This document shows, piece by piece, positions 6,115-9,486 of a stretch of DNA of 43,862 nt (position 1 is its first letter; the number at the start of each line of letters is the position of its first letter). Both the position numbers and the translations under genes were made by a program. Under the pieces are notes generated by a model, which was not told the DNA's origin, did not search any database, and worked only from the letters and a program-made list of their open reading frames with translations. The stretch is from positions 1 to 43,862 of the forward strand of contig JANXYV010000171.1 in assembly GCA_025355875.1 (NCBI GenBank). Direction: 5' to 3'. The DNA comes from Prolixibacteraceae bacterium (GTDB taxonomy: Bacteria > Bacteroidota > Bacteroidia > Bacteroidales > Prolixibacteraceae).

Positions 6115-6714
6115 ATGGCAGTTGTATTAAAAAGTCTACCTTATTCATTTGATGCGCTCGAACCATATATCGACGCACAAACAATGGAAATTCATCATGA
6201 TAAACATCATGCAGCATATGCGAACAACCTGAATGCAGCGATTCAGGGTACAGCTCTTGAAGGGCAAACAATCGAACAAATTTTGACCAATATATCGGCT
6301 CATCCGGTTGCAGTGCGCAACAATGGAGGTGGGTTCTTCAACCACAATCTTTTTTGGGAAGTGATGTCACCAGGGGGTTCTAAACAGCCTGAAGGAGATT
6401 TATTGAAGTCTATGGATGCAGCGTTTGGGTCGTATCAAAATTTCAAAGAAGCTTTTACAAAAGCTGCCCTCACCCGGTTTGGGTCCGGGTGGGCCTGGCT
6501 GGTAAAGCAGGGTGATAGTTTGGTGATTTCGTCCACACCTAATCAAGATAATCCTTTGATGGATTTGGCGGAAGTAAAAGGAGTCCCGGTACTGGGTGTA
6601 GATGTGTGGGAACACGCATATTATTTGAAGTATCAAAACCGGCGGCCCGATTATGTCAACGCATTTTTTAACGTGATTAATTGGGACGATGTCGCCAAAC
6701 GGTTTAAAGGTTAG
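6115..6714 (+). CDS. Superoxide dismutase, Mn-type signature
   Basis: A 199-residue Fe/Mn-family enzyme that dismutates superoxide to oxygen and hydrogen peroxide in the cytoplasm. The metal ligands are visible: His27 (EIHHDKHH), His77 (FFNHNLFW), Asp163 and His167 (DVWEHAYY). Two residues that separate metal types point to manganese: glycine four residues before His77 (Gly73), and Gln144 in TPNQDNPL, as in E. coli SodA. Cambialistic use of iron or manganese is possible and cannot be excluded from sequence. No signal peptide is seen. It has its own promoter and a strong terminator. A second dismutase with an iron-type signature lies 2.2 kb downstream. Confidence 0.95.
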   Translation: MAVVLKSLPYSFDALEPYIDAQTMEIHHDKHHAAYANNLNAAIQGTALEGQTIEQILTNISAHPVAVRNNGGGFFNHNLFWEVMSPGGSKQPEGDLLKSMDAAFGSYQNFKEAFTKAALTRFGSGWAWLVKQGDSLVISSTPNQDNPLMDLAEVKGVPVLGVDVWEHAYYLKYQNRRPDYVNAFFNVINWDDVAKRFKG

Positions 6715-6904: not shown

Positions 6905-8686
6905 TTACAAGTGTGTATTATTTGATTGTGTTCTGGATTTCCACTTGTCTTTTCCCAGATGCATCTCGAGGCCCATTGAACCACCAAAATATTTGCCAAC
7001 GAAAAGGCTGGGTTTCAACGTAAACCTATCTTTTATTAGGACGTTAGCAGCAAAATAACCACCTAATGTATACGATCGGGCACTAAACAGACCAATATTC
7101 GGCATGATGCTTAATCCAACCCTGCCAACGTTTTTGTCTGCTTGCCCAAAACCACTTCCAATTCCTATTTGTGCCAAGCCCGGAGGACCCATTAGATGAT
7201 AATTATTCATCAGGTTTGCTTCTGCAAATATTGTTTCTTTTTCTCCGGCCCATCCGCCTATAATTGGTACAACATCACTTCCAAATAATGACGTCGACCC
7301 TCCGCTGCTTATGCCAACTGTTGCTCCTGCATATCGGCCGCTATAACTTGCCATGAAATTAATGTTAGTTGATTCATAATTGACTTCATTAGGCACATTT
7401 GACTGGTCGGTATTAGAATAAAGGTTGGTGCTGATTGTCAGATGTCGATAATCGGTAGGTTTGTAGTGATAAGAAACACCAGCTCCAAATGTAGAATAAT
7501 TCCTTTTCAGAGTTTCTTTTAGAGTTCCATTGCAATCATAATGATTGTCAGGGTAATTTCCAATGCTTCCAAACGTGCTGATGCTAAACCACCCTTTATT
7601 TCCAGAAGCTGACACCTTCTTGCCATTGTCTATGTTTATCTGGCTCATCGTCAACAATGAAAAGAAAAAAAATAGTGGAATAATCCGGCGAAGATGAGTC
7701 GTAAATACCTGACAGTATATGTTGTAGAAGTATATCGACAATAAAAGTGATGTGAAAAAAGTCAAGGTGAGAATTTCGAAGGGTGCAAGCCAGTTATAGG
7801 TTAAAGTCAGAAAGGCGGGGACTGCAAGGAAAAGTTGAAATTCCCGGTAAAAATTAATTTGATAAGTTTCTTTTATCTGAAAGGAACCTCTGGAAAACCT
7901 TGTTTCCCGATAAAAAAGTAAAAAAGCTATCGTGATGGCTGCACACAAAATCATCCATTGAATAATCTTGATTCCCAAATACATTTCGCCCATATGGCCT
8001 ATCATTGAAGAATCTCTGAAAAACTCATTGACAAACCTGAATATAACGTAACAAAGTATCACAAAAATTAACCGACTTCCAGTTGCTTTCCATGTTTTTC
8101 GGGTTAAGTATATAAGGAGCCAGATTCCCAGGCAGAAAAGCAGATCATAGATTTGAGTCGGGTGCATCGGAAGTGACAAAGTACTTGTACCAGGTATTTG
8201 CAAGTTCGCACTTTGAATTTGAAACACCTGAAAGTTGTTTCCGTACTGCACAGCCCAAGGTAATGTAGTTACGGTTCCATAACAACAACCACCAAAAAGA
8301 CAGCCTATACGTGTAATTGCCATGCCCACAGGCAATGCATAAGCCAGATGATCCAATACCGGAAGATTGAATTTGAGCCAGCGTTTAGCAAATATAAGCC
8401 CTGCAACTAAACCCAGGATTCCACCAAGAATTGATCGCCCGGTTTCAGGCAACCCATTTCCTTTTAAAAGCTGATACCAGCCTGCCGAATTCAAGGTGAC
8501 TAGTTTGTTCCCGATAATAAAAAATAATACTCCGAATAGGGTGATTAGTAACCAGGTACTTATCGGATATTTTTTTCTCAATCCGACGAAAATAAATATT
8601 ACTGAAGAAACCAGAAACGCCATAACATAGAACAATCCATACAAAAAGGAATGATCAGGTGAAGTAATGATAAATGTTAGTTTCAT
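6905..8686 (-). CDS. Lgt-family membrane domain fused to an outer-membrane-barrel-like domain
   Basis: 593 residues. About 1-265 is a multi-pass domain of the prolipoprotein diacylglyceryl transferase (Lgt) fold: TRIGCLFGGCCYG at 125-137 corresponds to the Lgt GRxxN signature, MHPTQIYD at 174-181 to the (R)HPxQLYE motif, and FRFVNEFFR at 216-224 to the RFxVEFxR motif. Canonical features are changed: the Asn of the signature is Cys, and the His of the SFHGG motif is Leu87. So transfer activity on prelipoproteins is doubtful and this is a paralogue. Hydrophobic segments continue to about 325. At 331-349 a basic patch followed by a hydrophobic run (HLRR then IIPLFFFFSLLTMS) looks like an internal signal peptide. 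From about 360 to 593 the sequence is Gly/Ser/aromatic-rich with alternating beta-strand character, like an outer-membrane barrel. It is convergent with the Mn-type sod and divergent from the Fe-type sod. Confidence 0.75.
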   Translation of the reverse strand: MKLTFIITSPDHSFLYGLFYVMAFLVSSVIFIFVGLRKKYPISTWLLITLFGVLFFIIGNKLVTLNSAGWYQLLKGNGLPETGRSILGGILGLVAGLIFAKRWLKFNLPVLDHLAYALPVGMAITRIGCLFGGCCYGTVTTLPWAVQYGNNFQVFQIQSANLQIPGTSTLSLPMHPTQIYDLLFCLGIWLLIYLTRKTWKATGSRLIFVILCYVIFRFVNEFFRDSSMIGHMGEMYLGIKIIQWMILCAAITIAFLLFYRETRFSRGSFQIKETYQINFYREFQLFLAVPAFLTLTYNWLAPFEILTLTFFTSLLLSIYFYNIYCQVFTTHLRRIIPLFFFFSLLTMSQINIDNGKKVSASGNKGWFSISTFGSIGNYPDNHYDCNGTLKETLKRNYSTFGAGVSYHYKPTDYRHLTISTNLYSNTDQSNVPNEVNYESTNINFMASYSGRYAGATVGISSGGSTSLFGSDVVPIIGGWAGEKETIFAEANLMNNYHLMGPPGLAQIGIGSGFGQADKNVGRVGLSIMPNIGLFSARSYTLGGYFAANVLIKDRFTLKPSLFVGKYFGGSMGLEMHLGKDKWKSRTQSNNTHL

Positions 8687-8784: not shown

Positions 8785-8910
8785 AATATTGATTGGAAAT
8801 CCTTATTCAGAATGAATCTAAATTGCTCATGAAAAAAATGAATTTGAAAACCTTTTAATTCAGAATTCTGTTATATCGTGCACATAGTCATTAACCAAAA
8901 ATTAACCCAA

Positions 8911-9486
8911 ATGAGTTTTACATTACCCGCATTACCTTATGCCATTGATGCTCTGGAACCATTTATCAGTGCACAAACACTGGAGTTCCATCATGGCAAA
9001 CACCATCAGGCTTATGTCACGAATCTGAATAACCTGATTGTTGGAACCGAATTCGAAAATGCTACCATGGAAACCATCATCAAAAAGGCGGAAGGTGGAA
9101 TTTTCAACAACGGCGCACAGGTTTTTAACCACACGTTTTACTTCGCACAATTTTCTCCAAAACCTGCTACTGAACCTTCAGGAGAGTTAAAAGCCGCAAT
9201 TGATGGTACTTTTGGATCGCTCGAAGCATTTAAAGAAGCATTCAATAAAGCTGCTGTTACCCAATTTGGTTCGGGCTGGGCCTGGCTGGTAAAAGATGCT
9301 GCCGGAAAACTGAGCATCGTTCAAACCAGCAATGCCGGATGTCCGGTTCGCGATGGTTTAACTCCACTTTTAACCTGCGACGTTTGGGAACATGCCTATT
9401 ACCTCGACAAACAAAACCTTCGCCCGGCTTATGTGGCCGACTTCTGGAAAGTGATGGACTGGAAAGTGGTAGAAGGAAGATTTTAG
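8911..9486 (+). CDS. Superoxide dismutase, Fe-type signature
   Basis: A 191-residue Fe/Mn-family dismutase. The start at 8911 (MSFTLPALPY) is chosen because the family begins there; an upstream in-frame GTG at 8878 would add 11 residues with no homology. Ligands are His27, His74, Asp157 and His161. The metal-type markers are those of the iron class: Gln70 four residues before His74 (NNGAQVFNHTFYF), and Ala142 in TSNAGCPV, as in E. coli SodB. The enzyme is thus complementary to the Mn-type paralogue 2.2 kb upstream. It is probably cytoplasmic, as no signal sequence is seen. Confidence 0.95.
   Translation: MSFTLPALPYAIDALEPFISAQTLEFHHGKHHQAYVTNLNNLIVGTEFENATMETIIKKAEGGIFNNGAQVFNHTFYFAQFSPKPATEPSGELKAAIDGTFGSLEAFKEAFNKAAVTQFGSGWAWLVKDAAGKLSIVQTSNAGCPVRDGLTPLLTCDVWEHAYYLDKQNLRPAYVADFWKVMDWKVVEGRF

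Follow-up and report, generated by a model that had tools for sequence, protein, structure and literature searches.

The gene at positions 6905-8686 of the window (the whole 43,862-nucleotide stretch analysed, from a contig of a Prolixibacteraceae bacterium) raises the question of how a single reading frame can join a relative of Lgt, an inner-membrane enzyme, to a sequence resembling a β-barrel of the outer membrane. The sequence-only reading of this locus had proposed a two-membrane system encoded as a polyprotein. This proposal gains support from a barrel prediction for the C-terminal half, a frame without an internal stop, a segment between the halves with the anatomy of a signal peptide, a canonical Lgt encoded elsewhere in the genome, and relatives of the barrel that occur alone with a signal-like start of their own. 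With a probability of roughly three in four, the product is a polyprotein that is cut between S348 and Q349, its Lgt-like half being kept in the inner membrane and its barrel going to the outer membrane; the cleavage itself, the final locations and the use of BAM are what we infer from these observations.

The single 593-residue frame had been given its correct coordinates and belongs to the minus strand, on which it is open from 8686 to 6905 (Table 1); in the other direction, stops occur throughout the interval. The motifs named for its first half, TRIGCLFGGCCYG, MHPTQIYD and FRFVNEFFR, are all found in the protein, and HLRR with its hydrophobic run lies at residues 331-348, directly followed by Gln349. 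No stop codon separates the halves in any of the 25 distinct fusions, all from Bacteroidota, that constitute the working set. An assembly error or a chance run-on was rejected because the frame recurs in a second fusion of this genome and in relatives from other genomes. The paralog (L003, 602 residues) is 26% identical to the window protein over both halves, and another relative (L006) is 69% identical over the full length. Moreover, the fusion goes beyond chance because the 25 proteins have the same order of parts, their halves co-diverge, and dN is well below dS. In particular, dN/dS between the window protein and L006 is 0.134/0.791 (approx. 0.17) for the Lgt part and 0.243/1.367 (approx. 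0.18) for the barrel, where dS is near saturation; thus, one uninterrupted frame holds two separately selected parts, as a polyprotein does. Among 24 proteins, the distances of the two halves correlate with a Mantel r of 0.76 (0 of 5000 permutations), although the Spearman coefficient is only 0.39. In the window, the fusion gene has a gene for an Fe/Mn superoxide dismutase on either side (6115-6714 and 8878-9486, both on the plus strand). Judged by eye, gene neighbours are common only to close relatives (L003/L079 and L007/L008) among the loci examined, and the context therefore lends no support to a shared function.

Table 1. Features of the fusion gene (nucleotide positions in the window; residues of the encoded protein)
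Feature	Position	Strand	Remark
Whole fusion gene, 593 aa	6905..8686	-	one open frame; coordinates include the stop codon
Lgt-like domain, residues 15-258, seven predicted membrane helices	7913..8644	-	PF01790 and full-length model
Cys motif RIGCLFGGCCYG (126-137), where Lgts have the signature GRxGNxxNGExWG	8276..8311	-	
HPTQ motif (175-178), at the place of E. coli Lgt HPSQ	8153..8164	-	
FRFVNEFFR (216-224); R217/E221/R224 equivalent to E. coli R239/E243/R246	8015..8041	-	
Two extra predicted membrane helices, approx. 279-324	7715..7852	-	W299 and E304, close to where the helices meet, are conserved
Internal signal-peptide-like segment (331-348): HLRR, then 14 uncharged residues, Ser at -1	7643..7696	-	
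Gln349, predicted +1 after signal peptidase I cleavage (S348/Q349)	7640..7642	-	
Predicted outer-membrane β-barrel, approx. 12 strands, residues 365-577	6956..7594	-	
Invariant Cys385, predicted first hairpin of the barrel	7532..7534	-	25/25 fusions

The distribution of the fusion family is patchy. At a threshold of E 0.001, the whole window protein has hits in 26 of 61 relatives, mostly confined to the Lgt part. Searched separately, the barrel half has hits in 4 of 23 genomes from the genus and, when the search is widened to the family, in 12 of 140; ten of the latter were counted, and two weak matches (L046 and L047, E 0.0015 and 0.009 for the C-terminal half) were judged to be chance and dropped. 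At the level of the order, a match to the first half is present in 259 of 295 genomes; among the matches listed, eight genomes reach at least 185 bits in frames longer than 500 residues, and the rest are mostly frames of 244-437 residues, as for ordinary Lgt-family genes. The barrel was detected in 4 of 395 genomes across the phylum (three fusions and one stand-alone barrel) and in 3 of 195 genomes of the class of L160 (a complete fusion, a second that is truncated by a contig end and a third with unread bases). A first contig scan with a single protein as query gave no match. In a scan of public genomes, 80 loci were retained, including five fusions, from Mangrovimonas xylaniphaga, Hymenobacter gummosus and three Bacteroidia/Bacteroidetes metagenome genomes; the other 75 are not fusions, since their GCxxxGCC frames of 248-487 residues are too short. 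Also dropped were L042 (the same gene as L079) and L206 (genome G971), which has unread bases in its frame; L207 (G991) and L208, both cut by contig ends, stand outside the 25, and L050 and L054 begin at contig ends. At L056 (contig C26 of genome G407), remains of a fusion gene lie in different frames, apparently broken or rearranged, and were left out of the count. No title listed in searches of open-licence papers describes such an Lgt-barrel fusion.

A tree of 56 Lgt-like domains, built by a quick method and containing some long branches, places all 24 fusion domains of sufficient length in a single clade (SH-aLRT 99), to which none of the ten canonical Lgts belongs. The fusions share one origin. 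Nearest to their clade are two stand-alone Cys-type proteins, from Planctomycetota and Kiritimatiellota.

Several further kinds of Lgt-family protein were encountered. A second kind of Lgt fusion, at L016 (1345-3219, minus strand), carries a phospholipid-methyltransferase-like domain (PF04191; ICMT is below its cut-off) in front of an Lgt-like domain with RLRCLVNGCCHG, and the proteins of L018 and L199 (683-2614, plus strand) group with it in the tree. L002 (1438-2301, minus strand) encodes a stand-alone Lgt-like protein of 287 residues with the motif ACFLNGCDYG, which is present in other genomes of the genus; four rows of this type form a clade of their own. The Lgt-like proteins of L057, L187, L188 and L189, from several genomes of the order, have frames of 388-400 residues and the motif RxGCxxSGDGCWG. 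One genome, G823 (L080 and L200), carries two barrel fusions, one methyltransferase-Lgt fusion and one canonical Lgt.

The only Pfam domain in the window protein is LGT (PF01790), which covers residues 15-258 with an E value of 6.7e-27 and 94.8 bits against a cut-off of 24.9. The NCBIfam lgt equivalog reaches 59.4 bits, far under its cut-off of 118.9. E. coli Lgt residues map onto the window protein as follows: H103 to L87, R143 to R126, N146 to C129, E151 to C134, L152 to C135, G154 to G137, R239 to R217, E243 to E221 and R246 to R224; the mapping of Y26 to Y16 rests on alignment with canonical Lgts. The loss of the Lgt His (of HGG) and Asn (of GRxxN), already noted at first sight, is thus located at Leu87 and Cys129. 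According to PMC13251419, the residues essential in E. coli Lgt are Y26, H103, R143, N146, G154 and R239. The window protein keeps four of these six (as Y16, R126, G137 and R217), and E221 and R224 are kept as well. The first half belongs to the LGT fold family, but departs from a true Lgt in its equivalog score and in the six essential residues. It can be described as a Cys-type Lgt-like protein (GCxxxGCC) with two added membrane helices, in which E304 is at least 90% conserved.

All 24 fusions counted here have C129, C134, C135 and G137 (L045, which lacks most of the first half, is not among them); the Cys counts are partly by construction, because 5 of the 25 fusions came from a pattern that includes GCC, the other 20 coming from profile or protein searches. 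The charged residues are less constant: the equivalents of R143, R239, E243 and R246 are kept in 15, 22, 20 and 23 of the 24 fusions, whereas each of 14 stand-alone GCC proteins has all four (rows picked by the GCC motif; of 18 tried, four gave no row). Y235 was discarded as a marker of lost activity, as it is kept in 12 of 24 fusions but in only 1 of 10 canonical Lgts.

It is possible, though rather unlikely, that the Lgt-like half functions as a Cys-type diacylglyceryl transferase serving lipoprotein clients of its own, with the barrel as a separate product. A GCC-type protein is the sole PF01790 match in the complete genome of Brocadia pituitae and in a Dethiobacter metagenome genome, and the window protein retains R126, R217, E221, R224, Y16 and G137. 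PMC13251419 reports Lgts with other residues at H103 and N146, Cys in the latter position being known from distant Lgts, and a Leptospira Lgt, with Cys in place of N146, that partly works in E. coli. The lost Asn was therefore discarded as proof of a new function: Cys occupies this place in many Lgt-like proteins and is the sole type in two genomes. Hence, of the suggestion that the first half may have a new function, the residue changes stand, but the Asn change does not carry the argument alone. A working transferase is harder to reconcile with the equivalog score, with the R143 equivalent being absent from 9 of 24 fusions, and with the canonical N146-type Lgt already present in 20 of 22 fusion genomes checked (a count that leaves out G161, the source of L045, the genome of L083, and G971 with its unread bases). 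The two exceptions are G016, which is 88% complete and shows only the fusion, and G660, which has another type. The genome of the window has four LGT-family genes, namely the canonical Lgt that was looked for (L001), the 287-residue L002, the window gene and the fusion L003; a Pontiellaceae genome, G826, likewise has both Cys-type and canonical LGT proteins. Together, the drift at R143 and the canonical Lgt in 20 of the 22 genomes suggest that the fusion is an additional protein whose Lgt-like half probably has an altered chemistry.

Drift at the active site could also mean that the first half is a worn-down carrier: a former neighbouring gene whose fusion internalised the signal peptide of the barrel, so that only the barrel works. 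Of 24 fusions, nine lack the Arg equivalent to R143 and two the one equivalent to R239, and in E. coli Lgt the changes R143A, R143E and R143K are inactivating (PMC4728403). When the halves were searched for separately, a relative of the barrel was found alone in 3 of 197 genomes of another class of the phylum, in frames of 216-270 residues with a signal-like start, which is the expectation if the signal peptide of the barrel turned internal on fusion. In these genomes (G578, G855 and G896), the LGT-family genes lie on other contigs and none has GCxxxGCC. The one stand-alone barrel tested in a profile comparison (L202) matched the fusion barrels with a probability of 93.8 over 117 columns. The other arrangement envisaged earlier, with the two halves as adjacent separate genes, was not encountered; the three stand-alone barrels are on contigs without a PF01790 match. 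Nevertheless, the Lgt-like half is the more conserved of the two, both in dN (0.134 vs 0.243 between the window protein and L006) and in median identity among 24 fusions (29% vs 21%), and the Cys residues and G137 persist throughout, although a mere carrier should decay. We therefore regard the worn-down carrier as unlikely.

An AlphaFold2 model of residues 349-593, based on six sequences, is all-β with approx. 12 strands (mean pLDDT 69.5, pTM 0.68, i.e., moderate confidence). By title, the best 50 of 838 Foldseek matches are all transmembrane-barrel proteins, complexes containing them, or a designed barrel; the best E value, 1.0e-5, belongs to FapF, and the top TM-score among the matches listed, 0.60, to a COG4313 channel. 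Hydrophobicity alternates along the strands with a score of 1.94 vs 0.95 in shuffles (0 of 5000), strands 1-2 showing none. Models and alternation together predict an antiparallel barrel of amphipathic strands, apart from the first two; the C-terminal half is not predicted to be the globular periplasmic domain that had been named as the alternative. A strict C-terminal β-signal is present in 11 of 25 fusions vs 1.3 expected, and is absent from the barrel of the window and from 14 of the 25 overall. Only four columns are invariant in the C-terminal half of the 25 fusions, Q349, C385, G454 and G510, and the same four are the sole invariant columns of a 731-column alignment of 18 sequences. Pfam and NCBIfam gave no usable match to the C-terminal half (the last 245 residues in the window protein) of the window protein and six relatives, the best E values being 0.028 and 0.23; in the PDB, the barrel half has no more than a weak sequence match, to TodX (E 0.5).

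The full-length model (mean pLDDT 67.1, pTM 0.52) consists of the seven Lgt helices, two more, a helix, a low-confidence stretch and then the strands; the helix spans residues 332-352, and confidence is below 50 at 349-362. The link between Q349 and the first predicted strand has 16 residues and can span at most approx. 58 Å. The periplasm is approx. 200 Å wide. An uncut chain is therefore judged unable to seat both parts in their membranes. The protein might instead remain uncut in the inner membrane, with a β-rich domain in the periplasm, and the poor -1 residue in 2 of 25 fusions agrees with this; given a Gln at the site in 25 of 25 fusions, amphipathic strands and matches to transmembrane-barrel folds, we consider it very unlikely.

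At the end of the segment between the halves, Gln occupies the predicted +1 position in 25 of 25 fusions, and no search pattern required it. The preceding residue is Ser in 14, Ala in 5, Gly in 4, Asn in 1 and Phe in 1, and is thus small in 23 of 25; the poor residues are Asn in Hymenobacter (L083) and Phe in L201. In each of the 25, a stretch of net positive charge comes first, then 12-22 uncharged residues (exactly 15 in 15 of the proteins) and then Gln. A 26th fusion, the contig-end-cut L207 from another class, reads VA/N at this place, without Gln. Signal peptidase I substrates of Bacteroidetes mostly expose Gln at +1, on average in 71% of cases across species (PMC5837995). In 146 kb of the genome of the window (the window and 102 kb more), Q was found in 12 of 17 signal peptides of the signal peptidase I type, chosen by eye from 25 listed candidates; automatic labelling, which misassigned some lipoproteins and one Q-type protein, gave 12 of 19. 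The invariance of Gln349 fits this Q-rule. The count of 12 of 17 from its own genome is close to the published mean. With a positive n-region, a short hydrophobic run, a small residue at -1 and Gln at +1, the internal signal-like segment of the window protein is built like a signal peptidase I site of Bacteroidetes, in line with its first description as signal-like. Since the segment resembles a normal signal peptide, it might be just that, the barrel being translated from an internal start, besides or instead of cleavage, with 331-348 as an ordinary N-terminal signal peptide. In 7 of 25 fusions, however, the 60 residues before Gln contain no Met, and ahead of the charged stretch there is no Met position common to all fusions. 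An internal ATG start is therefore unlikely, and internal initiation as a whole, for which GTG or TTG starts are possible, we consider extremely improbable.

On the polyprotein reading, the first 330 residues would insert into the inner membrane as the seven helices of the Lgt type plus two. The chain would then emerge on the cytoplasmic side at HLRR, and residues 331-348 would serve as a signal peptide within it. Signal peptidase I would cut between S348 and Q349, the new N-terminal Gln probably being cyclised to pyroglutamate. The freed chain would reach the outer membrane, where BAM would fold it into a barrel of approx. 12 strands, and the Lgt-like half would remain in the inner membrane. 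The least certain element concerns the function of this half, which has, in our view, ceased to be a housekeeping Lgt, its Cys cluster acting with or on the barrel that is made with it. In a specific form of this idea, C129, C134 and C135, at the periplasm-facing place of the Lgt active site, would act on Cys385 of the barrel before its release by signal peptidase I; we hold this to be distinctly doubtful. For such an enzyme with its own client, the putative action on Cys385 could be thiol lipidation or disulfide handling.

If the polyprotein reading is true, a single translation product supplies two membranes at a fixed 1:1 ratio, and an ordinary signal peptidase cuts a signal buried behind nine membrane helices. 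Such a polyprotein would be rare in bacteria, and it would represent a new way of making an outer-membrane protein. In addition, a branch of the Lgt family that keeps three Cys residues as its catalytic Arg drifts points to a chemistry beyond standard lipoprotein lipidation, and through the invariant Cys of the barrel a functional connection between the two halves can be tested directly.

Compared with known systems, the first half resembles Lgt (PF01790; PDB 5azb) in its fold family, its seven helices, the HP.Q motif and the equivalents of R143, G154, R239, E243 and R246. Unlike Lgt, it has Leu for H103 and Cys for N146 and E151, two extra helices and a fused barrel, and it occurs in genomes that mostly (20 of 22) encode a canonical Lgt as well. 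Stand-alone Cys-type Lgt-like proteins (GCxxxGCC) from many phyla share its Cys motif, by which those rows were chosen, but have no barrel and keep the charged residues more strictly. In its predicted fold, the second half may be likened to FapF, the β domains of autotransporters, OmpG, FadL and the COG4313 channel 4rl8, the last with the best TM-score among the matches listed (0.60/0.55). Unlike known outer-membrane β-barrels, the fusion barrel fits no Pfam or NCBIfam sequence family, and it would be secreted by means of an internal rather than an N-terminal signal peptide. Q-rule substrates of signal peptidase I, as described in PMC5837995, share with the fusion the Gln at +1, a small residue at -1, a positive stretch and a short hydrophobic run. 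The signal of the fusion differs from theirs in lying within a polytopic membrane protein, at residue 331. A near precedent is FbcH of Bradyrhizobium, the cytochrome b/c1 precursor, in which one bacterial precursor is cut by signal peptidase at an internal signal. Both products of FbcH stay with the inner membrane, whereas the second product of the fusion would reach the outer membrane.
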